A stretch of 64,000 nucleotides of DNA, from the NCBI RefSeq assembly GCF_900167005.1, contig NZ_FUXW01000003.1:15439-79438 (forward strand), given 5' to 3'. How positions within the stretch are numbered: position 1 is the first letter of the stretch; every line of letters begins with the position of its first letter. The DNA comes from Butyricicoccus pullicaecorum DSM 23266 (lineage in GTDB: Bacteria; Bacillota; Clostridia; Oscillospirales; Butyricicoccaceae). A program made the translations under genes and the position numbers. The notes below the pieces were generated by a model. The model ran no database searches. It was not told where the DNA came from and saw nothing but the letters and a program-made list of their open reading frames with translations. Of this stretch, positions 1 to 16,487 are shown piece after piece.

Positions 1-52
1 GTGCTCCGAGCAGCTTTTCCGGGAGGAGCTGGCCCTCATTCTGGCCCGCTGA
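1..52 (+). CDS. IS30-family transposase, 3' end only (cut by window start)
   Basis: The first bases encode the last 16 codons and stop (CSEQLFREELALILAR) of an IS30-type transposase. They are identical to the C-terminus of the complete transposase ending at 46121. The rest of the gene lies outside the window. This shows that a second copy of at least the phage right end lies directly left of the phage left end. Whether the upstream copy is a whole phage, a lone transposase gene or an assembly product cannot be seen from here. Confidence 0.9.
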   Translation, partial: CSEQLFREELALILAR

Positions 53-95
53 AAAATTTTTTAGACTTTTTTAGCATTTACTCTTGACAAACGGC
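1..95 (+). repeat. Left copy of the 95-bp phage right-end repeat
   Basis: Positions 1-95 match 46070-46164 base for base, and the match ends at 95/46164. The repeat covers the transposase 3' end plus about 43 bp of AT-rich terminal sequence ending CTTGACAAACGGC. After it comes phage left-end sequence here, but host sequence at the right copy. That is the pattern expected for a right end joined head-to-tail to a left end. Confidence 0.95.
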
Positions 96-130
96 AACGC
101 CCCCATTATTATTAAATGCACAGAGACTCA
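63..130. repeat. Abutted imperfect terminal inverted repeats of the transposable phage
   Basis: GCATTTA at 74-80 and its reverse complement TAAATGC at 113-119 are symmetric about 96.5. That is almost exactly the point where the 95-bp repeat stops matching. Extending outward, 63-73 and 120-130 still share GA.T.T.T spacing. Weak symmetry with a 2-base centre (96-97) is what IS30-family elements show when their two ends are joined. Matching is only moderate, so the exact ends are inferred. Confidence 0.6.
84..112 (+). promoter_or_regulatory. Junction promoter formed by right end plus left end
   Basis: TTGACA at 84-89 comes from the phage right end and TATTAT at 107-112 from the left end. The spacer is exactly 17 bp. 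The predicted start near 119-120 would transcribe rightward into the early genes. At the right end beside host DNA (46153-46158) the same TTGACA has only AAAAAT at the matching place, so no good promoter forms there. Junction promoters assembled on joining of ends are known for several IS families. Confidence 0.75.
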
Positions 131-159
131 CATGAGTCGCCTGTGCATTTTCTTTTTAT
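117..159 (+). terminator. Hairpin with U-tract at the phage left end
   Basis: TGCACAG and CTGTGCA flank an inner dyad GACTCA-CA-TGAGTC, followed by TTTTCTTTTTAT. This is a strong intrinsic-terminator shape about 0-40 nt after the predicted junction-promoter start. It could stop transcription entering from outside or from the upstream transposase. An ATG at 131 sits in the loop region, so the structure could also hide a start codon in read-through RNA. Confidence 0.65.
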
Positions 160-179
160 ATCGACCCCAAAAGACGGAG

Positions 180-491
180 GTGAGACCGACGGGAAAATAC
201 CGCTACCTGACCTTCGAGGACAGGAAAAAGATCGAGGCGTGGTACTTGATCGGAGACCGCCCCGCCGACATCGCGGCCCGCCTCTCCGTTCACTACACAA
301 CGATCTACAAAGAGCTCCAGCGCGGCGCGACCGGCGAGCTGGACGCAAACCAGCGCGAGGGGTACAGCGCAGAGCTGGCCGAGAGGCGGCTCCGTGAGAG
401 CTTCAAGCGCAGAGGCAAGAAAGCGGTCGCAAAGCCAAACAGCCAAGGACCCCCGGCACAGCCGGGCCGAAGAAAGGAGTGCTCAGCATGA
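180..491 (+). CDS. Small IS30-type helix-turn-helix protein
   Basis: The product carries one HTH of the kind found at the N-terminus of IS30 transposases (LTFEDRKKIEAW, then DIAARLSVHYTTIYKELQRG). It closely parallels residues 7-46 of the transposase at 45072 but has no catalytic domain, ending in a basic tail. It may bind the same terminal DNA as the transposase or regulate the early operon. The start is uncertain. A GGAGG lies on top of GTG 180, ATG 131 lies in the terminator loop, and an ACG at 189 sits at the usual Shine-Dalgarno distance. Confidence 0.7.
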   Translation: MRPTGKYRYLTFEDRKKIEAWYLIGDRPADIAARLSVHYTTIYKELQRGATGELDANQREGYSAELAERRLRESFKRRGKKAVAKPNSQGPPAQPGRRKECSA

Positions 492-679
492 GAAGCAGAA
501 AGAATAACACGACCCTGACACGAAAGGTGGACAAGTGGAACGCCAGAAAGGTGTGGCTCATTAAACGCTACGCCGACGGCCACTACGCCATCAATCAAGA
601 AGTCGGCGGTCGTGTTTTTTATTCCCGCTTCCAGCGGGCCACCAAGGCACAGATCGCGGCGATCTTCGCCTGCTGCTGA
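488..679 (+). CDS. Small basic hypothetical protein
   Basis: A 63-residue, lysine/arginine-rich protein with no family I recognise. Its ATG overlaps the stop of the preceding HTH gene (ATGA), with AAAGGAG eight bases upstream, so the two are probably translationally coupled. The residues KVWLIKRYADGHYAINQEVGGRVFYSRF look like a small beta-rich domain. It belongs to the early operon by position and codon use. Confidence 0.6.
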   Translation: MRSRKNNTTLTRKVDKWNARKVWLIKRYADGHYAINQEVGGRVFYSRFQRATKAQIAAIFACC

Positions 680-692
680 GAGGGGGGTACGC

Positions 693-965
693 ATGAACAC
701 CGTGCCAAAGTTCAACACCTCGTTGCTCTGCCGGGCTTCCTTCCCGGCCGAGCTGGAGGACGACGGCGGCCGCTGCATCGTGGAGGTGACGGTCTACCGG
801 CTGAACGCCGTGGCCGTCCACACCTTCCTGCTGGACGGGCCCGATCCGCTGCTGCGGCACCTCGGGCTCCCCGAGACCGACACCTACATCACCAAGCACG
901 ACATCGACGACCTCGTCACGGTCGTCCGCATCATCAGAGAGGAGGCACCAGCATGGCAGCATTGA
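693..965 (+). CDS. Hypothetical early phage protein
   Basis: A 90-residue acidic protein of unknown function. The start at ATG 693 is chosen because a G-rich Shine-Dalgarno (AGGGGGG) lies just upstream. The upstream in-frame sequence overlaps the previous gene. The 3' end overlaps the next gene by 13 bp, as in a tight operon. No motif, signal peptide or membrane segment is visible. Confidence 0.6.
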   Translation: MNTVPKFNTSLLCRASFPAELEDDGGRCIVEVTVYRLNAVAVHTFLLDGPDPLLRHLGLPETDTYITKHDIDDLVTVVRIIREEAPAWQH

Positions 966-1795
966 AAGAGATCGCCCGAGATGTCGCCAGTGAGATCCGC
1001 GACGGGATCGGCTGGGTGATCGTCTACCGCACCGGCCGCTCGTGGCACAGCGTCACCCTGTATAGCGACCTCGGCAACAACGAGTGGGAGACGGACGACA
1101 TCAACGACGCCCTCGAGGCCCTGCGCCTCGACCCGAGGGCCGTGGCTCTGAACGGCTACTACCTCGGTCACTTCGGCGACATGACCATCGAGGACATCGC
1201 CGCCGGCATCCGCTACCACTACGAGCGCGGCACCAACGCGCTCGCAGATGATGACATCCTCGCACAGGCCCGGGCCGACATCGAGGCGGCCCGGCAGCAG
1301 GCCACCGAGGCTGGGCTTCCCTTCAGCGAGCGTCTGGTGGATGGCCCGGAGGACGAGCTCAACCCCTACATATACGACGGCAGCATGACCGCCGAGGACT
1401 ACAACGCCATGCAGGCGGCCAGAGAAGCGCACACAGCTCTCGCCGAGGTCGTGACAAGCCATTACCCCGACGCCACCGAGGAGGCCATCGAGCGCATCGC
1501 AGAGGCCGCCGGGAGCATGAATATCAGCCCGGAGACCATGCAACGGATCCTCGGCGCCTTCGACAAGATCGCGGAAGCCATCAAGGCGATCGGCGAGTGG
1601 GCGGCTCGGGCCATCAGAACGCTCGCGGACTTTTTCACCGAGTCGCTCGACGACTTCATGCTGCGCCGTGCCCCGCCTAAGTGGCGCCACTACGCGCTCC
1701 ACGCAAAGCGGGCAAGAGTCCGCAAGAAGTACAAAGACAGGATCCGGCGCGCCTTCTTTGCCTCGATGGCTTCGGAAGGAGGTGGGAGCTCGTGA
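953..1795 (+). CDS. Hypothetical early phage protein, 280 residues
   Basis: The N-terminal half (residues 1-90) reads as a compact domain (IGWVIVYRTGRSWHSVTLYSD) resembling proteins that recite small acidic patches around IEDIAAGIRYHYE. The middle is alanine/glutamate-rich and helical. The C-terminus (about 225-280) is strongly basic (RRAPPKWRHYALHAKR, KKYKDRIRR), suggesting nucleic-acid contact. It is translationally coupled to both neighbours. I do not recognise the family. Confidence 0.6.
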   Translation: MAALKEIARDVASEIRDGIGWVIVYRTGRSWHSVTLYSDLGNNEWETDDINDALEALRLDPRAVALNGYYLGHFGDMTIEDIAAGIRYHYERGTNALADDDILAQARADIEAARQQATEAGLPFSERLVDGPEDELNPYIYDGSMTAEDYNAMQAAREAHTALAEVVTSHYPDATEEAIERIAEAAGSMNISPETMQRILGAFDKIAEAIKAIGEWAARAIRTLADFFTESLDDFMLRRAPPKWRHYALHAKRARVRKKYKDRIRRAFFASMASEGGGSS

Positions 1796-1971
1796 CAGCC
1801 AAGTGCGTCGGCTGCGGCCTTCACTGGAATGTGAGCATATACCAGAAAATCCCCCGCAGCGGCTACATCTGCCCGCATTGTGAGAGCCGGCTGCGCGCCG
1901 GCGAAACCTTGCCAAATAAACAGGCCGACCAGAGTGGCCGTCCGCAGAAAATGAAAGGAGCAAAACCATGA
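1792..1971 (+). CDS. Small zinc-ribbon protein
   Basis: A 59-residue protein starting at a GTG that overlaps the previous stop, with GGAGG seven to eight bases upstream. Two CxxC knuckles (CVGC and CPHC, 23 residues apart) form a probable zinc ribbon. The tail is polar and basic. Small zinc ribbons are common in phage early operons as adaptors or regulators. Its partner here is unknown. It overlaps the start of the DGR target gene by 4 bp. Confidence 0.65.
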   Translation: MTAKCVGCGLHWNVSIYQKIPRSGYICPHCESRLRAGETLPNKQADQSGRPQKMKGAKP

Positions 1972-2666
1972 AGAAAGCCCTCGAGACTGCCGCCCGCGGC
2001 ACCGTTTTCCCCTACGCCGGAGAGAAGTGGGTCGCGCTGGAGCACGAGGCCGGCGGCCGGACGCTCTGCCTGCGCCTCGACCTGATCCCGGACAAGCCCT
2101 TCGACGAGAACAACCGCAACAACTTCGCCATCTCCAGCAGCAAGGAGTGGATGAACGGCCCCTACCTCGACAACCTGATCGACGCCGTCAAGGGCCCGCA
2201 CGCCTTCCTCACCACCGAGCTCGACCTGACTGCCGACGACGGCCTGAAGGACTACGGCACCTGCACCGTCACCATCTTCTCGCTGACCGTCGACCAGTAC
2301 CGGCGCAACCGCGATGTCATCCCCAACGCAGACGACTGGTGGTGGCTCTCGACCGCATACAGCACCGCGGCCAATGGGTACGAGCATAGCGCCCGCTACG
2401 TCAGGGTCGATGGCACGCTGAACTGGAACTACGCCTACTACGGCAACTGCGGTCTGCGCCCCGCTTGCTATCTGGACTCCGATCTCCTGATCCCCGTCGA
2501 CGACGAGGACGCCGGCATCGGCCCGCAGGAGGCCGGCACCATCGTCGCAGAGCTGGTCGAGCAGTTCGGCGGCACCTATGCCACCGGGGAGCAGTTCACG
2601 GCCGAAGTCTCCTTCCTGCTCGGGAAGCTGCGGGCGCTGCGGGAAGCGGAGGTGGCCCATGAGTAA
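1968..2666 (+). CDS. DGR-diversified C-type-lectin-fold protein in the early region
   Basis: A 232-residue protein with the WWWLSTAY...SARYV...DGTL...GLRPAC pattern of formylglycine-enzyme/DUF6273-like C-type lectin folds. These are the usual DGR target domains. Residues about 142-167 are a variable repeat matching the template at 37183-37276, with eight changes at template adenines and one silent C-to-T. There is no signal peptide or membrane segment, and the neighbours are DNA-metabolism genes, so it is probably made early and acts inside the cell (inference). A 60-residue helical C-terminal tail follows the variable region, so the repeat is not at the extreme C-terminus. Confidence 0.85.
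   Translation: MKKALETAARGTVFPYAGEKWVALEHEAGGRTLCLRLDLIPDKPFDENNRNNFAISSSKEWMNGPYLDNLIDAVKGPHAFLTTELDLTADDGLKDYGTCTVTIFSLTVDQYRRNRDVIPNADDWWWLSTAYSTAANGYEHSARYVRVDGTLNWNYAYYGNCGLRPACYLDSDLLIPVDDEDAGIGPQEAGTIVAELVEQFGGTYATGEQFTAEVSFLLGKLRALREAEVAHE
2388..2466 (+). repeat. DGR variable repeat 2 (remote)
   Basis: Over 2391-2466 this aligns without gaps to template bases 37201-37276. Differences are 8 at adenines of the template plus one C-to-T (2453) that leaves glycine unchanged. The invariant cores GATGGCACGCTG and CTGCGCCCCGCTT are kept. Upstream of about 2388 the similarity fades, so this repeat is shorter at its 5' side than the one at 39255-39348. Confidence 0.92.
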
Positions 2667-3370
2667 CCTCTCCAGCCTACTCGACCACTACAAGGCCCTC
2701 GTCATCTTCGACACGGAGACCAGTGGCCTCGACCCGGAGGACGACCAGATCATCGAGCTCGCAGCCCTGCGCGTGGAGCGCACCACGGCCGGAGCCCTGC
2801 GGATCGCCGGAAAGATGGACACCTTCATCAAACTGCCGGAGGGCGAGCAGCTCCCCGAGAACATCGTCGCCCTCACCGGCATCACCGACCGGCTGCTGGA
2901 GACCGAGGGCGTGCAGAGCGGAACGGCCGTCAGCCGCTTCCTCAAGCTGGTCAAGCCCCGGCCCCGTCCTGATGATCGCCCACAATGCACAGTTTGACGC
3001 CTGTTTTCTGAGGGAGCTGCTGCGGGGCTTCAAACCCGGCCACCTCGACTGGCTGGACAGCCTCACGGTCTACAAAGACCGGCGCGCCTATCCTCACAAG
3101 CTCGCCAACGCGATCATCGCCTACGAGCTGGAGGACAAGGTGCAGAACAGCCACCGGGCCATCGACGATGTGCTCGCCCTGTTTGAGGTACTGAAGGCCA
3201 TGGACGAGGAACGGGACGACCTCGCCAACTACGTCAACCTGTTCGGCTACAACCCCAAGTACGGCGTCAGCGGCCACCGGATCACCGGCGTGCGCTATGA
3301 GCCGCAGGGCTTCAACAAGACCATCACCCGACCGGAGCAGACGCTCCCGGCCCGCACAAGAAGGAAGTGA
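2659..3370 (+). pseudogene. DnaQ-like 3'-5' exonuclease interrupted by a frameshift
   Basis: DEDDh exonuclease of the DNA polymerase III epsilon type. Exo I is FDTETSGLDPEDDQIIELAA at residues about 16-35, Exo II is MIAHNAQFDACFL and Exo III is SHRAIDDVLALFEVL. The first 100 residues and the rest are in different frames. Removing one C from the CCCC run at 2956-2959 restores FLKLVKPGPVLMIAHN exactly as expected for the family. The break could be a real mutation, a recoding site or a sequencing error. The start at ATG 2659 overlaps the previous gene. A 60-residue C-terminal extension follows the nuclease. Confidence 0.85.
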
Positions 3371-3375
3371 AATGA

Positions 3376-4776
3376 ATGATAAAGATTTTGATCGGCGGCT
3401 CTCCGTGTACCTACTGGAGCGTCGCACAGAAAAAAGGGCGAGAGGTCGAAGCTGAAGGGCTCGGCTGGGAGCTGTTCAGAAACTACCTGATCGCAAAGGA
3501 AAAATTCAAGCCCGACTTTTTCCTCTATGAGAACAACAAGAGCGCCGCGCAACCCATTAAAGACCAAATCAGTCACGAGCTCGGCGTGGATCTCATGCAC
3601 ATCAACAGCGCCCTCGTGAGCGCGCAGAACCGTCAACGCTTTTATGCCTTCAACTGGAACGTCGACCAGCCTGCGGATCGCGGCATCATGCTGAAGGACA
3701 TCCTCGAGACGACCACCTCCGAAAAGGGGTACGAGCTCAGGGCTCCGGCGGTCGGAGTCGGATGCAGGAACAGACGCGAGGACGACGGAAAACTGTACCG
3801 ACGCTTCGAGACCAGCGGCATCCCCAAAGCCAATGCCCTGACGACCGTGCAGACCGACAGCATGGTTGCCGAGCCCATCAGGATCGGCACCATAGGAGAG
3901 GCTCAAGGCGCCGCATGGCGCGGGCGAGACAATGGCTCTGCATACGAGGTAAGAACCGACGGCAAAGCCAACGCCCTCACGGCATCGGGACATCAGAGCA
4001 GGCTCGTCGTCACCAACCAAAACGGCGAAGATCTGCCGGTCTATGAGGTGGTCAACGGAGAGATCGAGATCAAGGGGAAAAAGTACCCGATCAAACTGCC
4101 GGACGGCTACTACGTCATCAGAAAGTTCACGCCAACAGAGTGCGAGCGTCTCCAAACTCTCCCGGATGGCTATACATCGGCAGTCAGTGCAACTCAAAGA
4201 TACCGCGGGCTCGGGAATGGCTGGACGGCTGAGGTCATCATCCACATCCTCACGGGAGCTCTGAAGGACGTGCCGAGGGACGAGGAGATCGTCGTCCTCT
4301 CCATGTATGACGGCATCGGCACCGGGCGCTACTGCCTCGATAAAATGGGCTTTACGAATGTAACCTACTACGCCTACGAAATCGACAAGCCCGCCATGAC
4401 CGTCGCGCTCAGCAACTACCCCGACATCATTCAGCTCGGCGACGCCTTCGACCTTCGCCGCGATGACTGGGCGCTCGGCAAACGCTTCGAGCACACCACA
4501 GAGCAGAAGGCTGAGACGCCCGAAAACCCTGACCAGACGACAGACCTCTCGGACGCCCCCGAGGAAATCAAGGAGCAGATCATTGAAAATGATCGAGCAC
4601 TGAAGGAGAAGGACGACACCGCCCTCGCCCTGCTCCCTGACGGCTTCGACGTGGTCGACCAGCTCTCTGAGCTTCTCGCCGAAAGGAAGAAGCTACACAT
4701 CATCGACGAGGAAAACCTGCGCTACAACTGCGACATCATCGCGCTCGAGTACGCAATAGGCACACTCAGGAGGTGA
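3376..4776 (+). CDS. Circularly permuted C5-cytosine DNA methyltransferase
   Basis: A 466-residue cytosine-5 methyltransferase with motifs in rotated order. It opens with motif IV (GGSPC, residues 7-11, catalytic Cys11), then ENN (motif VI, 52-54) and QNRQR (motif VIII, 84-88). A target-recognition stretch follows, then PTECERLQTLP (motif IX, about 250) and GLGNGW (motif X, about 278). Only then comes the SAM-binding motif I, LSMYDGIGTG (about 308-317), with YAYEID (motif II) and GDAFDL (motif III). Motif I style resembles DNMT3-like phage enzymes. The 70-residue tail is a charged helix. It probably methylates phage DNA to evade restriction (inference). Confidence 0.88.
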   Translation: MIKILIGGSPCTYWSVAQKKGREVEAEGLGWELFRNYLIAKEKFKPDFFLYENNKSAAQPIKDQISHELGVDLMHINSALVSAQNRQRFYAFNWNVDQPADRGIMLKDILETTTSEKGYELRAPAVGVGCRNRREDDGKLYRRFETSGIPKANALTTVQTDSMVAEPIRIGTIGEAQGAAWRGRDNGSAYEVRTDGKANALTASGHQSRLVVTNQNGEDLPVYEVVNGEIEIKGKKYPIKLPDGYYVIRKFTPTECERLQTLPDGYTSAVSATQRYRGLGNGWTAEVIIHILTGALKDVPRDEEIVVLSMYDGIGTGRYCLDKMGFTNVTYYAYEIDKPAMTVALSNYPDIIQLGDAFDLRRDDWALGKRFEHTTEQKAETPENPDQTTDLSDAPEEIKEQIIENDRALKEKDDTALALLPDGFDVVDQLSELLAERKKLHIIDEENLRYNCDIIALEYAIGTLRR

Positions 4777-4781
4777 AGAAC

Positions 4782-5048
4782 ATGACCCCGGACATCACCA
4801 TCACGAGTGAGGAGCTGCGTGAGCGCGTCGAGGAGTACCTCGGCCGCTGGATCCCCGACAGCCTGTGGGAACGCTCTGAGCCATACGCCCGCAGGAAGCT
4901 CGACCTCTGCCGGGAACGCAACCCGGAGATCGACTACTACAACGACGAGTACCTCGTCCTGCTGACCGCCGATACCGTAAAGGAGACCGAGTTCAGCGAC
5001 TACACCCTCGCGGCCTGCGAGGCCATCATGGCGGCCCGGGGCCAGTGA
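4782..5048 (+). CDS. Hypothetical early phage protein
   Basis: An 88-residue acidic protein with no recognised domain. ATG 4782 is preferred because AGGAGG lies seven to eight bases upstream. The in-frame GTG at 4773 sits inside that Shine-Dalgarno. The body (SEELRERVEEYLGRWIPDSLWERSE) is predicted helical. It sits between the methyltransferase and a cell-wall hydrolase in the same operon. Confidence 0.6.
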   Translation: MTPDITITSEELRERVEEYLGRWIPDSLWERSEPYARRKLDLCRERNPEIDYYNDEYLVLLTADTVKETEFSDYTLAACEAIMAARGQ

Positions 5049-5060
5049 AAGGAGAAAACC

Positions 5061-5735
5061 ATGGAAGCAGCAAAAGAAAGAGCCGCCCGCTGCAACCGGG
5101 CGACCCCTGCGAGAACATCCGGCAGCTCTCCAGCGCACGGATCCCGCACCCAAAGTATAGCACACCGCCGGCGCCGTGCCAAGACCCGGATCCGGCAGGC
5201 GTCCGTCCTGATGGCGGCCGCCGCCATCGTCGCCGGCATCGTCATGGTCATCTCGAGCGTGACAACAGAAAGGCCGGCGGCTTCGGACGCAGCGCCAGAA
5301 CGTCCGGCGGCCGTCGTCACGACGCCCGCGGAAAGCGCGCAGACGACAGATCAGACCGAGCCGACCGTCCGCTTCTATCTCAGCGCCAGCGAGCGTGACA
5401 CCGTCGAGCGCGTCGTCATGGCAGAGGCCGGCGGTGAGAGCTTCGAGGGGCAAATGCTGGTCGCTCAGTGTATTCTCAACGCGGCCGAGAAAGAGGGCGT
5501 GCAGCCCTCTGAGGCCGTCGTGATTTACAGCTATACCAGCAACAGACCAGGCCCCACGCAGAGCGTCAAGGACGCCGTCGCGGCCGTATTCGACCGCGGC
5601 GAGGTCGCTATCGACGCCCCTGTCATGTACTTCTACAACCCGGCGCTCGTGACGAGCACATGGCACGAGAGCCAGATCTTCGTTGCTGAGGTCGGCGGCC
5701 ATCGCTTTTTCGCAGAAAGGAGCCCAAACGAATGA
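5061..5735 (+). CDS. Membrane-anchored cell-wall hydrolase (SleB/Hydrolase_2-like)
   Basis: A 224-residue protein. A basic cytoplasmic segment (1-45) is followed by one transmembrane helix (about 48-66), a Thr/Pro/Ala-rich linker and then a SleB-type domain (ERVVMAEAGGESFEGQMLVAQCILN, and YFYNPALV near the end). The first glutamate of the AEAGGE motif is the likely catalytic residue. The family cleaves peptidoglycan. Its place in the early DNA-metabolism operon, far from the lysis genes at 41-43 kb, is unusual. Possible roles include superinfection control or wall remodelling (inference). Confidence 0.75.
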   Translation: MEAAKERAARCNRATPARTSGSSPAHGSRTQSIAHRRRRAKTRIRQASVLMAAAAIVAGIVMVISSVTTERPAASDAAPERPAAVVTTPAESAQTTDQTEPTVRFYLSASERDTVERVVMAEAGGESFEGQMLVAQCILNAAEKEGVQPSEAVVIYSYTSNRPGPTQSVKDAVAAVFDRGEVAIDAPVMYFYNPALVTSTWHESQIFVAEVGGHRFFAERSPNE

Positions 5736-5887
5736 GACCCGCAACTGATATGAAGCCGGGCGAGATCCTGCACTTGCGCAACGGCTACACCGTCGAGCTC
5801 GAGAGCGTCAAGCCCGTCACCTGCGGCGTCATGCTGACCTTTAAGGCCAGCGCGCCAGACAGAAAGGAGAACCACAATGAGCGATAA
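5732..5887 (+). CDS. Small hypothetical protein, 51 residues
   Basis: A short frame whose ATG overlaps the stop of the hydrolase gene (ATGA), with AAAGGAG upstream. It ends 11 bp inside the next gene. The product (MRPATDMKPGEILHLRNGYTV start) looks like a small beta-barrel-type domain. No family is recognised. Tight overlaps on both sides argue that it is a real coupled gene. Confidence 0.55.
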   Translation: MRPATDMKPGEILHLRNGYTVELESVKPVTCGVMLTFKASAPDRKENHNER

Positions 5888-6503
5888 GACCACCGCGGCC
5901 ATCGCCGCAGAGCAGCAGGCGGCCGCCGCAGAGGCCCCGGCCGAGGTGCTGCCAGCCGTCACCCTCGACGAGCTGGAGCAGGTCGACCTCGGCACCGTGC
6001 AACAGGGCGAGCGCGCCCCCTTCCGTATCACTGACGACCGCTGCGCCGACTGGGCCATCCGCAAGATCGCCGAGGAGCGCAGCGAGTACAACCGCCTGAA
6101 GGAGCTGGCCGACCAGCAGAAGGCGGCCATCGAGGAGAAGGTCGAAGCCGCCCGCCGGCGCATGGAGAACGGCACCGCCTTCCTGACCTCCTGCCTCGCC
6201 GACTTCTTCAACACCGTGCCACACAAGACCACCAAGACGACCGAGAAATACCGGCTGCTCTCCGGCACCCTGACCCTCAAGAAGGGCACCGTCAAGGCCA
6301 CGGTCGACGACGCCAAGCTGGTGCCGTGGCTGCGCGAAAACGGCTACGGCGACCTCGTCAAGGTCGAGGAGTCGGCCAAGTGGGGCGAGCTGAAGAAGCT
6401 TCTCGCCTACACCGGCGAGATCGCCACCATCCAGAGCACCGGCGAGATCGTGGAGGGCGTCACGGCCTACGAGACCCCGGCCACCTTCACGGTCGACATC
6501 TAA
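5877..6503 (+). CDS. Gam-like host-nuclease inhibitor / Gp157-like protein
   Basis: A 208-residue protein with an Ala/Glu-rich leader, the signature ADWAIRKIAEERSEYNRLKE (about 58-77), a coiled coil to about residue 100, then a small alpha/beta domain ending LKKGTVKATVDD...LKKLLAYTGEI. This layout matches Mu Gam-type and siphophage Gp157-type proteins. Gam binds DNA ends and protects them from RecBCD/AddAB. It precedes the ERF annealase and SSB, forming a recombination cassette, which supports the call. Confidence 0.7.
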   Translation: MSDKTTAAIAAEQQAAAAEAPAEVLPAVTLDELEQVDLGTVQQGERAPFRITDDRCADWAIRKIAEERSEYNRLKELADQQKAAIEEKVEAARRRMENGTAFLTSCLADFFNTVPHKTTKTTEKYRLLSGTLTLKKGTVKATVDDAKLVPWLRENGYGDLVKVEESAKWGELKKLLAYTGEIATIQSTGEIVEGVTAYETPATFTVDI

Positions 6504-6515
6504 AGGAGGTGCCAC

Positions 6516-7316
6516 ATGGCAACTGAGACCAAAAAGCCGGAGGCGGCCGCTGCTGCGGCCCCTCCCATCGAGGCCCGCTGTCTGACGCTCCGGCAGAAGC
6601 TCGTCGAAATGCGGAAAGCCTGCCCGGAGATCGTGAAGAAGCAGCACAGCGACGGCGTCAGCTATAAGTACGCCAAGATCTACGATGTGTGGGAGAAGAT
6701 CACCCCCATCATGAACGAGCTCGGCGTCGACTTCGAGGTCGTCGGCGAGAAGGCCACGCGCTACGCCGAGAACGGCGACCCGGTCTACTGGATCACCATG
6801 CAGACCAAGACCTACAAGGGCGACAAGCTCATGTTCCTTTACGAGGCCGACCTGACGATCCGCTGGATCAACCTCGACAACGACGACGAGACGCTGGAGG
6901 CCGTCGTCCACGCCCTCGGCTGGAACGACGACCCGGCCAAGGCCAAGGGCGCCGCCCACACCTATGCCCTGAAATACTACCTGTTCGAGAAGTTCAGCAT
7001 CGACCAAGGCGAGGACGACCCCGACAACAGCGACTTCAGCGCGCAGGGCAAGGGCCCCGGGGGCACCTCTGGCGGCTCCAGACAGGGCCAGCAGCGGCAG
7101 GGGCAGGGCTCCGGCCGACTGTCCGACGCGCAGCTCACCCGGCTCTACAAGAAGGCAGAGGCCGCCGGCATGAGCAAGGAGCGCACCAACGCCCGGATCC
7201 TCGAGAAGTACAAAAAGCAGGATCCGGCCACACTGAGCCGGCAGGAGTACGACGAGATCTGCAACTCTCTCGACGCCGCTGCCGCGCAGCATAAGCAGCA
7301 AGGAGGGCAAGGCTGA
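6516..7316 (+). CDS. ERF-family single-strand annealing protein
   Basis: A 266-residue ERF-type recombinase. The conserved ERF core spans about 25-165 (LRQKLVEMRKAC, YKYAKIYDVWEKITPIMNE, and AAHTYALKYYLFEKFSID). A Gly/Gln-rich linker (about 180-200) and a C-terminal helical domain follow. ERF proteins anneal complementary strands during phage recombination and genome circularisation. GGAGG lies seven bases before the ATG. The gene is flanked by Gam-like and SSB genes, and its stop overlaps the SSB start. Confidence 0.85.
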   Translation: MATETKKPEAAAAAAPPIEARCLTLRQKLVEMRKACPEIVKKQHSDGVSYKYAKIYDVWEKITPIMNELGVDFEVVGEKATRYAENGDPVYWITMQTKTYKGDKLMFLYEADLTIRWINLDNDDETLEAVVHALGWNDDPAKAKGAAHTYALKYYLFEKFSIDQGEDDPDNSDFSAQGKGPGGTSGGSRQGQQRQGQGSGRLSDAQLTRLYKKAEAAGMSKERTNARILEKYKKQDPATLSRQEYDEICNSLDAAAAQHKQQGGQG

Positions 7317-7741
7317 TGTATAACCACATAGGACTCCAAGGGCGGCTGACGGCCGATCCTGAGCTCAGACACACACCGAGCGGCGTGGCGATCACCAGCT
7401 TCCGGCTCGCCAGCGATACCGGCCGAAAGACCAAGGACGGGAAGAAGATCACCAACTTCATCGACTGCGTCGCGTGGCGTGCGCAGGCCGAGTTCGTCGG
7501 CAAGTACCTCAGCAAGGGCCGGCTCGTCCTCGTGGAGGGCGAGATCACCAGCCGCAATTATGACGACAAGGACGGCAACCACCGCAAGGCCACCGAGATC
7601 ACCGTCGACTCTGTCCACTTCTGCGACAGCAAGAAGGACAGCCAGAGCAGCGGAGGTGACTTCGCAGACGCCGGCGGCTACCCGGACAGCTCGGGAGACT
7701 TCACCGAGGTGGATGACGATGGCGGGGATCTGCCCTTCTAA
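7316..7741 (+). CDS. ssb: Single-stranded DNA-binding protein
   Basis: A 141-residue OB-fold SSB. The N-terminus MYNHIGLQGRLTADPELRHT and the core FIDCVAWRAQAEFVGKYLSKG are diagnostic. A short acidic linker leads to the C-terminal tip DGGDLPF, which recruits partner proteins. It is slightly shorter than chromosomal SSB (about 150-170). It binds replication and recombination intermediates with the neighbouring ERF, initiator and loader proteins. Its ATG overlaps the ERF stop. Confidence 0.95.
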   Translation: MYNHIGLQGRLTADPELRHTPSGVAITSFRLASDTGRKTKDGKKITNFIDCVAWRAQAEFVGKYLSKGRLVLVEGEITSRNYDDKDGNHRKATEITVDSVHFCDSKKDSQSSGGDFADAGGYPDSSGDFTEVDDDGGDLPF

Positions 7742-7815
7742 GCGACCGCCGGACAACCGGCGTCCGACCAAAACCAAGCCAAAGACACGCGACCGCATAG
7801 AAGGAGGTGACGACC

Positions 7816-8673
7816 GTGGCATGGCTGCAAGTGCATCAGACGCTCAAAGACCACCGCAAGCTCTTTGACGCCGCCGACGAGCTGGAGATCACCCCGCCGC
7901 ACATGATGGGGCTGCTCGTTTCCTTCTGGCTGTGGGCCCTCGATAACGCCCCCAAGGGAGACCTCGCCGGCATCACTCCCCGCATGATCGCCCGGGCGGC
8001 ACAATGGGACGGAGACCCCGAAAAGCTGGCCGAAACGCTGATCCGGGCCGGCTGGATCGACGAAAATGAGGACGGCGCGCTCGAGATCCACGACTGGTAC
8101 GAGTACGCCGGCAAGCTGATTGACCAGCGGCAGGCCGAGAAAGAGCGGTCGGCCCGCCGCCGTGCTGCCGCCGCTTCGTCTGCGGACGACACGCCGGGAG
8201 ACCCCGCACCGACCGACGAGCGACCGGCGGCCGACCAAAAGGCGACCGGCGGCAAGAGTAGAGTAGACCAGAGTAGAGTAAAGAAAGGGAGTGTGACACC
8301 CCCTACCCCCTCTGACGAGGGGAGTGGCGCGGCGAAGAAGTCGGCCATCGAAACCCGGTTTGACGAGTTCTGGAGTGCCTACCCGAAGAAGGTGGGCAAG
8401 CAGTACGCCCTCAAGGCGTGGAACAAGATCAGACCAACGGCCGAGCTGCACGAGGCCATCATGCAGGCCATAGGCACGCAGAAGCGCAGCGAACAGTGGC
8501 GCCGGGAAAACGGCCGCTTTATTCCCAACCCGGCCACATGGCTGAACGGGGGCTACTGGGAGAACGGCGAGGAGGTGAGCGCGGATGCAGTCGATCAGCG
8601 AGATCCTCAGCATGGGCCCGAGACCGGCCGAGACTGGGGCAAGGGCTTCAAGCCGGCAGACGATGACGAGTGA
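7816..8673 (+). CDS. Phage replication initiator / DnaD-like protein
   Basis: A 285-residue protein. The N-terminal winged-helix-like domain (AWLQVHQTLKDHRKLFDAAD to LEIHDWYEYAGKLI, about 1-100) is followed by an Ala/Pro/Ser linker and a C-terminal domain FDEFWSAYPKKVGKQYALKAW...FIPNPATWLNGGYWEN. This is typical of Gram-positive phage replisome organisers. GTG 7816 is chosen because GGAGG lies seven bases upstream. An in-frame GTG at 7807 falls within the Shine-Dalgarno. It should bind the origin and hand over to the DnaC-like loader encoded next. Confidence 0.75.
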   Translation: MAWLQVHQTLKDHRKLFDAADELEITPPHMMGLLVSFWLWALDNAPKGDLAGITPRMIARAAQWDGDPEKLAETLIRAGWIDENEDGALEIHDWYEYAGKLIDQRQAEKERSARRRAAAASSADDTPGDPAPTDERPAADQKATGGKSRVDQSRVKKGSVTPPTPSDEGSGAAKKSAIETRFDEFWSAYPKKVGKQYALKAWNKIRPTAELHEAIMQAIGTQKRSEQWRRENGRFIPNPATWLNGGYWENGEEVSADAVDQRDPQHGPETGRDWGKGFKPADDDE

Positions 8674-9559
8674 CGAGCCTGACGACCGCTGGATCTGGAG
8701 CAACGACGAGCGCGTCGCCGGCCTGCCGGACACCCCTGAGCCCGTCCGCTGCGAGTTCTGCGGGGCCATGAGATACCACAAGGGCTTCAAGTTTGGCGAC
8801 CGCATCATCTGGCCGCCCTACGGCGCCGAGCGTTGCACCTGCCCGCAGGCCGTGAAAGCCTACGAGGAGGAAAAGGCCGCCAAGGCCGCCGAGGAGGAGG
8901 AAAAGCAGAAGGCCGAAGCCGAGCGCAAAATGCGGGAGCGCATCAGTCGCATCGTCGGCGAGTCTGGCATGGGCGACCGCTTCCTGCGGCGCACCTTCGA
9001 CACCTTCCAGATCACCGACGACAACCGGCGCGCAGCCGCAGCGGCCCGCAGGTATGCCGACAGCTTCGACAGCCTGCTCCCCCGGCCCGGGGCTCCCGAG
9101 CCCGGCCGCAACGGCCTGTTCATCGCAGGCCCGCCGGGCACCGGCAAGACACACCTCGCCGCAGCCATCGCCAACCACCTGATCGCGCAGGGCCGGCCGG
9201 TCGTCTGCATGACCATGATCGACCTGCTGGAGCGCATCAAGCGCACATTCTCCAAGCGCGACACCGACGAGGGCAGCGTGCTGAAGATCTACAAGACCGT
9301 CCCGCTCCTCGTCATCGACGACATCGGCAAGGAACCGCCGACCGAGTGGGCGATCTCCACGGTCTACAACATCATCAACGGCCGCTATGAGGCATACCTG
9401 CCGACCATAGTGACCACCAACTACGACACCGAGGCCCTGATCGGGCGCATGACCCCGCGGGAGACGCGGGACGACATGACCGCCCGGGCCACCATCGACC
9501 GGCTCATGGAGATGTGCAGGGCGATCACCCTCACCGGCCAGAGCTGGCGCCAGAGATAG
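8585..9559 (+). CDS. DnaC/IstB-type helicase loader ATPase
   Basis: A 324-residue AAA+ protein. A cysteine cluster (CEFCGAM...CTCPQ, about 56-80) suggests a zinc site. Walker A is GPPGTGKTHLAAAIANHL (about 182-199) and Walker B is LLVIDDIGKE. A sensor region follows (TIVTTNYDTEALIGR). It loads replicative helicase at the phage origin. The start at 8585 has a clear GAGGAGGTGA upstream, making the gene overlap the initiator by 89 bp in another frame. ATG 8663 is an alternative without a good Shine-Dalgarno. Confidence 0.88.
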   Translation: MQSISEILSMGPRPAETGARASSRQTMTSDEPDDRWIWSNDERVAGLPDTPEPVRCEFCGAMRYHKGFKFGDRIIWPPYGAERCTCPQAVKAYEEEKAAKAAEEEEKQKAEAERKMRERISRIVGESGMGDRFLRRTFDTFQITDDNRRAAAAARRYADSFDSLLPRPGAPEPGRNGLFIAGPPGTGKTHLAAAIANHLIAQGRPVVCMTMIDLLERIKRTFSKRDTDEGSVLKIYKTVPLLVIDDIGKEPPTEWAISTVYNIINGRYEAYLPTIVTTNYDTEALIGRMTPRETRDDMTARATIDRLMEMCRAITLTGQSWRQR

Positions 9560-9573
9560 GAGGACACGACCAC

Positions 9574-10095
9574 ATGAAAAAGGTTTACATCTGCTCCCCC
9601 TGCCGCGGGGACTACGAGAACAACATCCAGCGGGCCAAGGAGTTCAGCCGGGCCGCCGTGGAGCGCGGCTGCATCCCCATCACCCCGCACATCTACCTCA
9701 CGCAGTTCATGGACGACACCAACCCGGCCGAGCGCGAGGCCGCCCTCAAAATGGGCCGCGAGCTGGTGCTGATGTGCGACGAGCTGTGGGCCTTCGGCCT
9801 CGACTGCCCGACCGCCGGCATGGCCGCCGAGATCGAGCTGGCCCGGGAGCGAGGGATCCCCGTGCTCAACGGCTTCAAGGCCATCAGCGAGATCCCCGAG
9901 GCCGAGAAGCGGGACGAGGATCCGCAGGACGCCGGCAGCGTCGTCGTCCGGGTGCCGGCCTTCAGGGCTATGGCTCGCTGCAACGAGCACATGAACCACG
10001 GGCCCATCAGCATCGAGCTGGACGGCCGGATCATCTTCGACCTCGCCAAGCACCTGAAGGACAAGCCGGGCAGCCGGATCGAGATCGGCGGGTGA
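9574..10095 (+). CDS. DUF4406/nucleoside-deoxyribosyltransferase-like protein
   Basis: A 173-residue protein. The N-terminal Rossmann-like domain has KVYICSPCRGDYENNIQRAK, ITPHIYLTQFMDD, and CDELWAFG..CPTAGMAAEIELARERGIPV. This is the pattern of DUF4406-type relatives of nucleoside 2-deoxyribosyltransferases. A separate small C-terminal domain (about 125-173) follows. The family may act on nucleotides, but activity is not demonstrated here. ATG 9574 follows AGGAGG by eight bases. Confidence 0.7.
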   Translation: MKKVYICSPCRGDYENNIQRAKEFSRAAVERGCIPITPHIYLTQFMDDTNPAEREAALKMGRELVLMCDELWAFGLDCPTAGMAAEIELARERGIPVLNGFKAISEIPEAEKRDEDPQDAGSVVVRVPAFRAMARCNEHMNHGPISIELDGRIIFDLAKHLKDKPGSRIEIGG

Positions 10096-10100
10096 TAGCC

Positions 10101-10778
10101 ATGGCAGACAATCCCAAGAAAAACGCCGAGGGCTACAACGACCCGACCCCATACGAGGCAGAGAAGCACATCCGGGCGCAGATCCGAGGCCAGCGCGCCC
10201 GGGCTGCCGGCAACTACTTTGAGGCGATGATCTCCGGCTCCTGCGACTACTACCGCGACCGGGGGCTCGCCAAGATCGAAAAGACGCCGGAGCCTATGAA
10301 ACCCCTCGGGCCGAAAAACCGCAAGGGCCAGTTCCTCGCCTGCTACACCAAGCAGGCCCAGCCGGACTACGGCGGCACACTGAAGGGCGGCCGGAGCGTC
10401 TACTTCGAGGCCAAGCACACCGACGACGACCGCATCGAGTTCAACCGGCTGACCAAGGAGCAACGGGACGATCTCGAACACCACCACAAGCTCGGCGCCG
10501 TCGCCTTCGTCCTCGTCTCCATGGGCCTGACCGAGTGCTTCCGCGTCCCGTGGCCCGTCTGGCGGGACATGGCCGCCACCTACGGCCGCAAGTACATGAC
10601 CCGGGACGAGCTGAAGCCCTACAAGGTGCCGGTCGTGGCCGGCTTCGTGAAGTTCCTCGACGGCCTGCCCCCGGATGTGGTCACAGTGAAAAGCCTGAGC
10701 CCCGAGGAGCTCGAGCGCCTGAAGCAAGAGCTGCAAAAGCAGCCGTTTATCATCACCGTCAGGGAGGCGCAGCCATGA
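10101..10778 (+). CDS. RecU-like Holliday-junction resolvase
   Basis: A 225-residue nuclease. Key features are GNYFEAMISGSCDYYRDRG, then VYFEAKHTDDDRIEFNRLTKEQRDDLEHHHKLG, with the E-x-K motif typical of RecU and the AxKxT region replaced by AKHT. It resolves recombination junctions in phage DNA and fits beside ERF and SSB. The end overlaps the next gene by 4 bp. I chose ATG 10101, six bases after the previous stop. Its Shine-Dalgarno is weak, suggesting coupled translation. Confidence 0.8.
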   Translation: MADNPKKNAEGYNDPTPYEAEKHIRAQIRGQRARAAGNYFEAMISGSCDYYRDRGLAKIEKTPEPMKPLGPKNRKGQFLACYTKQAQPDYGGTLKGGRSVYFEAKHTDDDRIEFNRLTKEQRDDLEHHHKLGAVAFVLVSMGLTECFRVPWPVWRDMAATYGRKYMTRDELKPYKVPVVAGFVKFLDGLPPDVVTVKSLSPEELERLKQELQKQPFIITVREAQP

Positions 10779-10966
10779 AGGACACCGTCGACAGCAGGGC
10801 CGTGAAGATCGCGGCCACCATCATGCAGGCGGCCGGCCTGTGCCGCTACGACTCCATCGCCAAGTGCCAGCGCATCAGCGTGGACTCCATCACCTGCGAG
10901 AGGTGCATCCGGGCATGGCTGCTCTCCAAGGCCAAGAAGGAGCTCGAAAAGGAGGAGACGACATGA
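10775..10966 (+). CDS. Small cysteine-containing hypothetical protein
   Basis: A 63-residue helical protein with four cysteines (CRYDSIAKC and CERC), possibly a zinc-binding mini-domain. GGGAGG lies upstream. It overlaps RecU at its start and the MT-A70 gene at its end, both by ATGA. No family is recognised. Confidence 0.55.
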   Translation: MKDTVDSRAVKIAATIMQAAGLCRYDSIAKCQRISVDSITCERCIRAWLLSKAKKELEKEETT

Positions 10967-11572
10967 TCCCGCTCCCCGACAAGAAGTACAGCATCATCTA
11001 CGCGGATCCCCCGTGGAGCTACCAGAACAGGGGCACCCGGGCCGCAGCTTCCAAGCACTACGACACCATGACCATCGAGGAGCTCAAGAAAATGGGCGTC
11101 GGAGCTGCGGGGGGGTATTGCTAACAGCGACTGCACCCTCTTTATGTGGGCGACCTTCCCCATGCTCCGCGAGGCCCTCGATGTGATCGAGGCGTGGGGC
11201 TTTACCTACAAGACCATCGCCTTCAACTGGGTGAAACAGAACAAAAACGGCGCCGGCCTGTTTTGGGGGCTCGGCAACTGGACGCGCAGCAACTCGGAGA
11301 TCTGCCTCCTCGCTGTGAAGGGCAAGCCGAAGCGCGTGAGCGCCAGCGTGCATAGCGTCCTTCTGTCCCCTGCCCGGCAACACAGCCAAAAGCCGGCCGA
11401 GATCCGCGACAGGATCGTCGAGCTGATGGGAGACCTGCCTCGGATCGAGCTTTTCGCTCGAGAGGCTGCTCCCGGATGGGACGCATGGGGAAACGAAGCG
11501 CCCGCAGCCAGCGCCAGAGAGGAGGAAACCGATGGACAGAACAACCAAAGAGACCCGGCGCCAGAGCTATGA
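10963..11572 (+). pseudogene. MT-A70-type adenine methyltransferase, out of frame at a G7 tract
   Basis: The first frame has the catalytic motif YADPPWSYQNRG (residues about 14-25) and stops at 11124 after a run of seven G (11109-11115). The following frame continues with NSDCTLFMWATFP, the family's SAM-pocket region, and PRIELFAREAAPGWDAWGNE. Six G would give one intact protein of about 202 residues. The family methylates adenine N6. The homopolymer could act as an on/off slippage switch, or be an assembly error or decay. The end overlaps the next gene by 41 bp. Confidence 0.85.
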
Positions 11573-11906
11573 CGCTGTGCTCCCCAAGAGGGAGAAGCGC
11601 TGCCGGCTGATCCTCGAGACCCTCGGCGGCCGGCAGATGACCGCCAGCGAGATCACCGAGGAGCTCGTCGCCTCGGGCCAGATCCCCTACTTCAACCGCA
11701 ACTATGTGGCCCCGCGCCTCACCGAGATGAAGCAGATGGGGATCCTCGAGACGGTCGGCCGCAGGAAGGCCACCCGCTCGGACGCCACCGAGGCCGTGTG
11801 GGCCCGGGCGCAGCAAGTCAAGGAAGCAGACCGGCAGGCGGCCGCGCCGGCCGACAACCCCGCCACCGGGCCGGAGCAGATGACGCTCCTCGGCCCCGGG
11901 GCCTGA
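11532..11906 (+). CDS. Winged-helix DNA-binding protein
   Basis: A 124-residue protein. Residues 20-85 look like a winged helix (CRLILETLGGRQMTASEITEELV...YVAPRLTEMKQMGILETVGRR), followed by an Ala/Pro-rich tail. This fold is common in phage early regulators and some replication proteins. It probably binds DNA, with unknown target. GAGGAGG-like sequence precedes the ATG inside the methyltransferase tail. Confidence 0.65.
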   Translation: MDRTTKETRRQSYDAVLPKREKRCRLILETLGGRQMTASEITEELVASGQIPYFNRNYVAPRLTEMKQMGILETVGRRKATRSDATEAVWARAQQVKEADRQAAAPADNPATGPEQMTLLGPGA

Positions 11907-11925
11907 CAGGAAGGAGAGAAACAAG

Positions 11926-12291
11926 ATGAACGAAAACCGCGACAGCATCATGCGCATGGCCCGCGGCGCCTTCGAGGAGCGCGTCGACTACGAGATGGAC
12001 AAGGTGATCCAGAACATCCTCGACCCCAACACCAAGGCCACCGCCAAGCGCAAGATCACCCTCACCATCGAGCTGACGCCGGACGACGAGCGCCGGCAGA
12101 TCCAAGTCTCGGTGACGGCCAAGAGCACCCTCGCGGCCACCAACCCGGTCGCCACCTCGCTCTATGTCACCGGCGACGCCAACGGCGAGCTCGTCGTGGC
12201 CGAGATGGTGCCGCAGGTGCCCGGGCAGCTCAACATGGACGGCACGCAGCAGGAGCAGCCGAAGCTCCTCAAGCTCGTCAGCCACGCATAA
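11926..12291 (+). CDS. Conserved phage protein of the 'replication terminator' name family
   Basis: A 121-residue protein with the pattern AFEERVDYEMDKVIQNILDPNT...RKITLTIELTPDDERRQIQVSV. Homologues in Firmicute prophages are often labelled replication terminator protein. The basis of that name is weak, so a function should not be assumed. Predicted structure is a short helix followed by beta strands. It is followed by another conserved early protein, as in related prophages. Confidence 0.6.
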   Translation: MNENRDSIMRMARGAFEERVDYEMDKVIQNILDPNTKATAKRKITLTIELTPDDERRQIQVSVTAKSTLAATNPVATSLYVTGDANGELVVAEMVPQVPGQLNMDGTQQEQPKLLKLVSHA

Positions 12292-12326
12292 GCGCATAAA
12301 TATTCATTCACAAGGAGGACAACACC

Positions 12327-13040
12327 ATGCTCGCCAAAATGATCGACAAAATCGTCAGCCTGAAGGAGACCAAGACCTTCGAGATCGGCGGTCAGACCTA
12401 CACCGACGGCCACCTCACCCGCATCCCGCCCCATGTCGACCGGCCCGAGGCCATCAGCGTCAGCGGTCTGGACGGCATCTGCAAGCTGATCCGCACCGAG
12501 CTGGGGAAAGTCGGCACGACCATCATGGTGCAGGCCAAGAGCTACAAGAGCGTCGAGGTCATGACCACCTACCTGCCGGACTTCTCCCGCAACATCCTCT
12601 ACCGCGCCGAGGCCGACGCCCCGGGCCTCTATACCGGCTTCCGCAGCCGTGAGGTCGCCCTGATCGAGCTGCGCAGCCTGTTCATCCCCAACGAGGGCAC
12701 GGCCTACCTGCTCGACCTGCTGAGCCGGATGACGGACGAGAACAGCGTCAGCACCAAGGACAACGGCGTCACGCAGACCGTGGAGGCCCGGCAGGGCGTG
12801 GCCCTCAATGCTCTGGTCGATGTGAAGCCCCGCGTCCTGCTGCGGCCCTTCCGCACTTTCCTCGAGGTGGAGCAGCCCGAGAGCGAGTTCCTGCTGCGCG
12901 TGCACCCCGAGGAGGGCATCGGCTTTTTCGAGGCCGACGGCGGGATCTGGAAGCTCGAGGCCAAGAAGAACATCGCCGACTACTTCAACACCAACCTCGC
13001 CGACCTGATCGAGGCCGGAAAGGTCGTCATCATGCAGTAA
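12327..13040 (+). CDS. DUF2303/YfdQ-like phage protein
   Basis: A 237-residue protein with mixed beta and alpha content. The segment VLLRPFRTFLEVEQPESEFLLRV (about 170-192) resembles the signature of the YfdQ/DUF2303 group. Function is unknown. Such genes are found between recombination and regulatory genes of temperate phages. AAGGAGG precedes the ATG. Confidence 0.55.
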   Translation: MLAKMIDKIVSLKETKTFEIGGQTYTDGHLTRIPPHVDRPEAISVSGLDGICKLIRTELGKVGTTIMVQAKSYKSVEVMTTYLPDFSRNILYRAEADAPGLYTGFRSREVALIELRSLFIPNEGTAYLLDLLSRMTDENSVSTKDNGVTQTVEARQGVALNALVDVKPRVLLRPFRTFLEVEQPESEFLLRVHPEEGIGFFEADGGIWKLEAKKNIADYFNTNLADLIEAGKVVIMQ

Positions 13041-13095
13041 GGACACCGGCCGGGCGGGCTGCGGCCCGCTCGGCCATTAAGAGAGGAGCAGCACA

Positions 13096-13464
13096 ATGAA
13101 CAACAACAGCAACAACAACGGTAGCGCCGGCGGCGGGATCGGCTTCTGCGGCCTGCTGACCATCGCCTTCATCGTCCTGAAGCTCACCGGCGTCATCTCA
13201 TGGAGCTGGCTGTGGGTACTGGCCCCCATCTGGATCCCCGCGGCCATCGTCCTCGCCGTGCTGCTGGTCGTCCTGATCGTCGTCCTCGTGAAGGAGGGCG
13301 TCCAGCAGACCGAGGAGAAGCAGCGCCGGCAGGAGCGCAGCCTCGGCATCGACGAGCAGGCCCGCCACTACGGCCTCGAGCGCCAGCCCGGGGAGACCGA
13401 CCTCGAGCTGAAGAAGCGCATCGCCTTCCTCAAGCAGGCCGAAAGGAGGGTCGGGAACAGATGA
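13096..13464 (+). CDS. Small membrane protein with coiled-coil tail
   Basis: A 122-residue protein. After an Asn/Gly-rich start, two hydrophobic helices (about 15-34 and 37-65) are followed by a charged helix (KEGVQQTEEKQRRQERS) and a helical tail. It is an inner-membrane protein of the early operon. Candidates are superinfection exclusion or membrane recruitment, but nothing specific supports either. A GC-rich hairpin at about 13047-13075 precedes its ribosome site. Confidence 0.6.
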   Translation: MNNNSNNNGSAGGGIGFCGLLTIAFIVLKLTGVISWSWLWVLAPIWIPAAIVLAVLLVVLIVVLVKEGVQQTEEKQRRQERSLGIDEQARHYGLERQPGETDLELKKRIAFLKQAERRVGNR

Positions 13465-13862
13465 TGGACGAAAGAGAACGCCGTGACATTATGCTGCGGG
13501 CCATTCGTCGCTACGGAGAAGCCGCTCAGATCGACATGGCCGTCGAGGAGATGGCCGAGCTGACCAAGGCCCTCTGCAAGGTCAAACGGGCGACGCCCGG
13601 GGCCACCACCACCGCAGCCATCGTCAACGTCATCGAGGAGATCGCGGATGTCCAGATCATGCTCGACCAGCTCCGGCTCATATTTGCCCGCAGCACCGAC
13701 GAGGTCGAGGAGGACAAGCTGCGCCGGCTGCTCGGACGGCTCAACAGCTACGCGGAGTCCAACCTACACGACTGGCTGAACAAGCAGCCCGAGCCGGGGA
13801 TCTGGTGCCGCACGGTCGGCTCCGGGGCTCAGCCCCGTGAAGGAGGTGCCCCGGATGAATAA
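13461..13862 (+). CDS. MazG-like nucleotide pyrophosphohydrolase
   Basis: A 133-residue all-alpha protein with MAVEEMAELTKALCKVKR and VIEEIADVQIMLDQLRLIF. These carry the paired EExxE and ExxD metal-binding motifs of MazG/all-alpha NTP pyrophosphatases. It probably hydrolyses nucleotides during infection. AAAGGAGGG precedes tandem ATGs at 13461/13464. The 3' end overlaps the next gene by 8 bp. Confidence 0.75.
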   Translation: MMDERERRDIMLRAIRRYGEAAQIDMAVEEMAELTKALCKVKRATPGATTTAAIVNVIEEIADVQIMLDQLRLIFARSTDEVEEDKLRRLLGRLNSYAESNLHDWLNKQPEPGIWCRTVGSGAQPREGGAPDE

Positions 13863-14365: not shown

Positions 14366-14377
14366 AGGAGGAAACCG

Positions 14378-15766: not shown

Positions 15767-15779
15767 CGCCCTGACCTGA

Positions 15780-16286: not shown

Positions 16287-16302
16287 AGGGAAGTAAAATC
16301 CA
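16263..16302 (+). promoter_or_regulatory. Four 10-bp phased GTAAA repeats (activator site)
   Basis: GTAAA occurs at 16263, 16273, 16283 and 16293, exactly one DNA turn apart. It is built from a 20-bp direct repeat of GTAAAGGGAAGTAAAA. The array ends immediately before the -35 of the late promoter and overlaps the last codons of the late regulator gene. Same-face repeats abutting a -35 are typical binding sites for an activator. Confidence 0.7.
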
Positions 16303-16463: not shown

Positions 16464-16487
16464 TTTCCCCTGAAGGAGGTGACGACC

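Follow-up and report, generated by a model that had tools for sequence, protein, structure and literature searches.

The genome of Butyricicoccus pullicaecorum DSM 23266 carries a prophage whose right and left ends are also found joined to each other, and a promoter-like sequence lies across the joint. The question raised by this locus is whether joining of the ends creates a promoter and, if it does, whether that promoter serves transposition or starts transcription of the phage early genes. The window analysed here is a stretch of 64,000 nucleotides (contig NZ_FUXW01000003.1, positions 15,439 to 79,438), and coordinates refer to the window unless a different contig is named.

The phage and its two forms

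The element occupies positions 98-46164 (46067 bp) and encodes a tailed phage, with genes for terminase, portal, major head protein, tail sheath and tape measure as well as for an ERF protein, a Gam-like protein, a replication initiator and a DnaC-like loader. The first gene of the early operon (180-491, + strand; the GTG start is our choice) encodes a small HTH_38 protein, which resembles the N-terminus of the transposase. It is followed on the + strand, at approximately 692-16286, by genes for an exonuclease-like protein, a C5 methylase, the Gam-like protein, ERF, the replication initiator, the DnaC-like loader and others. A preliminary description of the locus had the promoter facing the early operon, and the orientation of these genes agrees with it. 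At the right end of the element (45072-46121, + strand) is a gene for an IS30-family transposase, which scores 222 bits with NF033563 (curated cut-off, 80) and also matches phrog_4646. The acidic contexts HWE-D, DNG and NE, which we take to be those of the D, D and E catalytic residues of IS30-family transposases, are retained in all five aligned transposases. No solved structure was matched to the transposase by sequence. A Mu-type transposase was not found, the right-end enzyme being of the IS30 family, though a Mu Gam-like protein is present.

By gene content the phage is Lagaffevirus-like, having the IS30 transposase, ERF, a myovirus-type tail and a reverse transcriptase, and its transposase is 47% identical to that of Faecalibacterium phage FP_Lagaffe. 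The latter is described as a tailed phage which possesses ERF and a reverse transcriptase, uses an IS30-type transposase as its integrase, packages its DNA by a cos mechanism, has direct repeats at its ends and is not induced by DNA damage (available part of PMC5883640).

Bases 1-95 of the window are an exact copy of 46070-46164. Comparison of the joined with the host-flanked ends places the right end of the joined form at 74-95 (+ strand; GCATTTA, CTC, TTGACA and AACGGC in that order), an exact copy of 46143-46164, and the left end at 98-119 (+ strand; CGCCCCCAT, TATTAT and TAAATGC in that order). Between the two tips is a 2-bp spacer, AA (96-97), which is identical to the dinucleotide that ends the left host flank. 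A 20-mer from the left end occurs only once within the window. The host-flanked left end is found in the same genome at G000:C18:15334-15428, where it is followed by ten N and then by position 1 of the window, while the host-flanked right end lies at 46143-46164 (+ strand, with TTGACA at 46153-46158) and host DNA starts at 46165. One assembly contains, in other words, the joined junction and both host-flanked ends. The exact 95-bp overlaps next to the gap of ten N look like the k-mer edges of an assembler, and from the overlaps and the gap we infer that sequencing reads came from the integrated copy and the joined form alike. The joined form, as read from the assembly, would be compatible with an excised circle, with phage DNA in replication or with a tandem lysogen. 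Since the window begins right at a scaffold gap, one might suspect the joined junction of being an artefact of assembly, but junctions of the same type occur in independent viral contigs and phage records, including one locus (L006) whose transposase is 97% identical to that of the window, and we consider an artefact extremely improbable.

A promoter motif divided between the phage ends

According to the preliminary description, TTGACA is donated by the right end and TATTAT by the left end with 17 bp between them. This arrangement was confirmed, with TTGACA at 84-89 and TATTAT at 107-112, and the two hexamers of this putative junction promoter (84-112, + strand) match the consensus at 11 of 12 bases in a promoter scan. 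One promoter-consensus site was found in 1-5000 where 0.8 are expected, which does not place the lone junction site above chance, and two were found in 1-19000 where 2.4 are expected, the junction site being the only one on the + strand. The junction promoter is raised above chance by its position across the joint and by its conservation in relatives. From the position of the -10 hexamer, transcription would be expected to start about 7 nt further on, near 119-120. The -10 hexamer had also been described as missing from the host-flanked right end. TATTAT is indeed gone from that end, but the claim holds only in part, as the target sequence supplies AAAAAT in its place at a distance of 16 bp (10 of 12 matches). 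A site based on AAAAAT would point into host DNA.

Relatives were collected from four viral-contig scans, a genome-contig scan (best 80 of 148 matches), 87 family genomes and phage records. Among the 80 best of these 148 genome-contig matches, most titles carry the label Clostridia. A relative of the transposase was present at 244 loci, many of which are the same contig more than once. Eight loci lacked a stop codon, and the remainder together with the joined and host-flanked ends of the window gave 238; of these, 28 had no [ACG]TTGAC[AT] within 320 nt and nine were too short. Identical junctions were then merged, which left 28 distinct joined junctions, falling in 25 transposase clusters, and 116 other right ends. 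A junction was classified as joined if a gene for an HTH protein like the left-end gene started no more than 650 nt downstream, a rule that is independent of the -10 hexamer. The -35 hexamer was found in 210 of 231 stretches, where 22.5 would be expected, although picking it by pattern accounts in part for its conservation among these sequences.

The test for a -10 hexamer asked for TAnnnT with at least four of six consensus bases located 16-18 bp downstream of TTGAC[AT] at the right end. It was passed by 21 of the 28 joined junctions versus 12 of the 116 other right ends; the Fisher p of 2.3e-11 for this comparison serves as a guide only, the sequences being related and not independent. With at least five of six matches the counts were 17/28 and 6/116, and with a smaller set of loci they were 21/24 and 11/110. 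When distances from 3 to 35 bp were examined in bins of three bases, 15 of the joined junctions had the hexamer at 15-17 bp and 6 at 18-20 bp, with each of the other bins holding 0 or 1 of the 28. Several of the 12 other right ends that passed are probably joined forms in which the HTH gene was truncated or escaped detection; L256 and L328 carry both the repeat and the terminator described below, as does L103. Of the seven joined junctions that failed, six (L244, L245, L293, L303, L305 and L307) have at 17 bp a hexamer that deviates from the TAnnnT rule, and in L244, L245 and L293 it ends in A. In the seventh, L277 (the same contig as L022), what follows the right end is a portion of a different HTH gene and not the element's own left end, perhaps due to insertion beside a second IS30-type element.

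Integrated copies allow the two ends to be examined separately. In the window's prophage a 15-bp target duplication, CAAATTCCTCAAAAA, has its right copy at 46165-46179 and its left copy outside the window at G000:C18:15321-15335, and two relatives of the same genus that match the whole joined flank query possess a single copy of the corresponding stretch. Both ends were collected for 21 further elements, giving 22 pairs with the window, of which 18 were usable. Two of the remaining pairs (L231/L232 and L233/L234) lacked the -35 hexamer, and the other two (L197/L198 and L219/L220) were cut by a contig end or had no sensible duplication; L235-L240 were left out of the analysis. The target duplication is 15 bp in 11 of the usable lysogens, 16 bp in five and 14 bp in two, lengths that are blurred by chance matches or a single changed base, and its sequence differs in each of the 18. 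Site-specific integration with a common att core was rejected as an explanation, as the repeat is specific to each lysogen and absent from the joined form. IS30 itself makes 2-bp target repeats (available part of PMC9333248); no such repeats were found among the 18 lysogens, all of which have 14-16 bp. Long duplications have a precedent in the IS30-type element IS1630, four copies of which are flanked by repeats of 16, 23, 25 and 26 bp (available part of PMC3317919). The two pairs without a -35 hexamer, in which none was found past the longest frame, are peculiar in that the HTH gene and the transposase gene are only about 6 kb (L231/L232, G090:C16) and 3 kb (L233/L234, G114:C25) apart. These may be shrunken prophages or small elements that share these ends.

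When the ends of the lysogens were joined in silico with 2 bp of the left flank, a sigma70-like site appeared in 18 of 18, while the unjoined ends have such a site in 2/18 left ends and 2/18 right ends, the window's own right end included. At the mirror positions, the -35 hexamer is present in 0/18 left ends and the -10 hexamer in 0/18 right ends, and the ends therefore differ exactly at the hexamers. These counts bear on the possibility that the hexamers are parts of inverted repeats bound by the transposase and the HTH protein and that transcription does not start there. Both hexamers do lie within terminal repeats, which transposition must keep, yet a shared binding site should look alike at the two ends, which is at odds with the mirror-position counts, and a distance of 17-18 bp is reached only when the 2-bp spacer is included. 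We regard such a by-product of the repeats as improbable.

The contribution of the spacer can be followed in some detail. In the window the tips measure 6 bp (right) and 9 bp (left), which with the 2-bp spacer makes 17 bp. Right and left tips add up to 15 bp in 13 of the lysogens, 16 bp in three and 14 bp in two, and joined ends carry a 2-bp spacer, as tips of 15 or 16 bp correspond to joined spacings of 17 or 18 bp. The lysogens L227 and L229, for example, have the tips AAATGCA and GGTTCATTG (16 bp), and in the joined form L271 these two tips are separated by AA, for a total of 18 bp. Spacers vary between near-identical junctions (GC in L044 and GA in L045; GC in L312 and AA in L316; AT in L256 and CT in L321); the window (AA) and L006 (AC) also differ in the spacer, though here the left tip differs as well. 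The spacer between joined ends of IS30 is likewise 2 bp long. In IS2 a 1-bp spacer yields the obligatory 17 nt, and in the model for that element the spacer and the target duplication are equal in length (available part of PMC3299598). Set against the IS2 model, the pairing of a 2-bp spacer with a duplication of about 15 bp is odd.

A terminator-like hairpin in the left repeat

Folding and conservation point to a terminator-like hairpin with a T-run at 114-157 (+ strand), directly after the -10 hexamer, which was not among the features listed by the promoter and terminator scan. Positions 114-123 pair with 141-150 and 125-129 with 134-138, and the 5' arm is the left inverted repeat itself (TAAATGC in the window), lying before and across the expected start of transcription. 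Conservation was scored with a test that called for an arm starting 0-3 nt after the -10 hexamer, six or more uninterrupted pairs and a T-run, and which replaced a looser test that was often met in shuffled sequences. The terminator was found in 27 of the 28 joined junctions, where 1.8 are expected from dinucleotide shuffles, and in 10 of 113 other right ends, L256, L328 and L103 among them. The sole joined junction that failed was L277. With the left ends of lysogens added, the count was 36 of 36 against 2.3 expected, with 18 different outer hexamers; the leaders of L022, L031, L032, L034 and L050 as well as L277 and L241 were left out of this second count. The -10 hexamer was set by hand at 17 bp for L244, L245, L293, L303, L305 and L307 in both counts and at 16 for L241 in the count of 27/28.

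A small subgroup departs from this pattern. L031, L032, L034 and L050 are seemingly joined and have the -10 hexamer but neither an HTH gene call nor the terminator, and L259, L257 and L290 (= L032, L034 and L050), which were counted among the other right ends, failed the terminator test. In L031, L032 and L034 another ATG occurs within about 100 nt, and this subgroup may use the joint differently.

In folding of the window's leader the whole stem has a predicted energy of -20.8 kcal/mol, and an RNA that begins about 7 nt after the -10 hexamer retains only the inner part, at -10.5 kcal/mol. Such a model predicts that RNA reading through from upstream should stop at the hairpin and that RNA started at the junction, which lacks the outer stem, can pass, because the start site decides whether the outer stem forms. 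The conserved terminator in the left repeat, right after the -10 hexamer, is new here.

Proposed control of the early operon by joining and integration

The preliminary description had likened the joint to the junction promoters of IS elements, and the likeness is supported by the geometry, which recurs in 21/28 joined junctions and 18/18 in-silico joins, and by the IS30 family membership of the transposase. As with IS junction promoters, one end holds the -35 hexamer and the other the -10 hexamer, and the site forms on joining. The arrangement of genes is different, in that IS junction promoters have the transposase gene directly downstream while in the phage the HTH_38 gene and early operon lie downstream and the transposase gene upstream. 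In Tn916 and ICEclc, circularisation also puts genes under transcription from the other end, but there an existing transcript or a whole promoter reads across the joint and no split promoter is known. The junction promoter of IS30 has in common with that of the phage the IS30-family transposase, a promoter that exists only where the ends abut, and circular or tandem joined forms; it differs in driving the transposase and in being accompanied by 2-bp repeats, whereas the phage's faces early genes and is associated with duplications of about 15 bp (available part of PMC9333248). That of IS2 is similarly split between the ends with a 17-nt spacing set by the length of a short spacer, but it belongs to an IS3-family element, has a 1-bp spacer and drives the transposase (available part of PMC3299598). 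In mycobacteriophage BPs integration itself alters control of phage genes, as is proposed here, though by shortening and thereby stabilising the repressor rather than, as would be the case for the phage in the window, by splitting a promoter (available part of PMC4557955).

Taking the sequence comparisons together, we think it probable that a clade of temperate tailed phages has recruited a junction promoter of the IS30 type to drive its early genes, one that is on when the ends are joined and is split by integration. The phage would insert at unrelated sites by means of its IS30-family transposase with duplication of about 15 bp. In joined DNA, whether infecting or excised, RNA polymerase would start about 7 nt after the -10 hexamer and transcribe the early operon. 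Integration would put the hexamers 46 kb apart and leave the early operon silent, and rejoining of the ends would turn it on again. Read-through transcription, whether it comes from the host or, in joined DNA, from the transposase gene, would end at the terminator in the left repeat, while RNA from the junction promoter, which would be without the outer pairs of the 5' arm, would escape it. The HTH_38 protein may bind the ends or repeats and damp the junction promoter. The infecting form seems to carry the joint already, because the junction falls in the middle of the FP_Lagaffe record (MG711461), which opens with the terminase genes, and this phage is reported to use cos packaging. If the infecting form is joined, switching off by integration would therefore matter at least as much as switching on by joining. 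MG711461 has the same split hexamers and the terminator, with a spacing of 16 bp at a joint that was perhaps made in silico.

A different reading accepts the junction promoter as real but restricts it to transposition. It would serve to make the HTH_38 protein, which would steer re-integration or repress the ends, and other, regulated promoters would start the lytic programme. The known IS junction promoters serve transposition (available parts of PMC9333248 and PMC3299598) and the resemblance of the first gene past the joint to a transposase N-terminus fits such a role. The transposase gene, however, is upstream of the joint and not downstream, genes for replication and recombination follow on the same strand, and a scan covering sites of the sigma70-like type detected no second one on the + strand in 1-19000. 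We consider a role confined to transposition unlikely.

In well-studied temperate phages lysogeny is held by a repressor that acts on a standing promoter. Recruitment of the junction promoter as early promoter raises the prospect of an early promoter that recombination itself assembles and takes apart. In a stronger form of this proposal, which is offered tentatively and to which we give somewhat less than even credence, lysogeny would be set physically: transposition would halve the early promoter with no need for a bound repressor, the terminator in the left repeat would admit only junction RNA, and induction would be a matter of transposase control alone. IS30 junction promoters and tailed phages with an IS30-type transposase are both already in print. 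Searches of an open-licence library, which leaves aside preprints and most subscription journals, brought up no junction promoter serving a tailed phage's early operon, and the available part of PMC5883640 does not mention a junction promoter for Lagaffe. If the proposal is true, there would be prophages that ignore DNA damage, as reported for Lagaffe (available part of PMC5883640), lysogens may be without classical immunity, and a simple sequence test could tell joined from integrated phage DNA in metagenomes.

Upstream of the transposase gene is a gene for a Cro/CI-type HTH regulator (44766-45017, + strand), preceded by a promoter-like TTGACT-17-TATAGT (44703-44731, + strand) that overlaps a perfect palindrome, TATACAACAAATGTTGTATA, at 44710-44729. 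A strong terminator-like hairpin lies between the regulator and transposase genes (45022-45047, + strand). Control of excision may reside in this regulator, palindrome and hairpin. The hairpin suggests that transcription of the transposase gene may need read-through or a promoter that was not seen. The palindrome was also considered as a controller of the junction promoter and was rejected, as it has only one site in the window. Three out of four phage records have an HTH_3-type protein encoded ahead of the transposase, and nd12 has a HicB-like protein there.

The phage also carries a diversity-generating retroelement, with its template at 37198-37306, the reverse transcriptase gene at 37411-38733 and variable copies at 39270-39378 and 2388-2496. 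The second variable copy is about 35 kb away, inside a DUF6273 gene of the early operon. Over the first 78 nt of the copies, the mismatches lie entirely or almost entirely at an A of the template (12/12 and 9/10).
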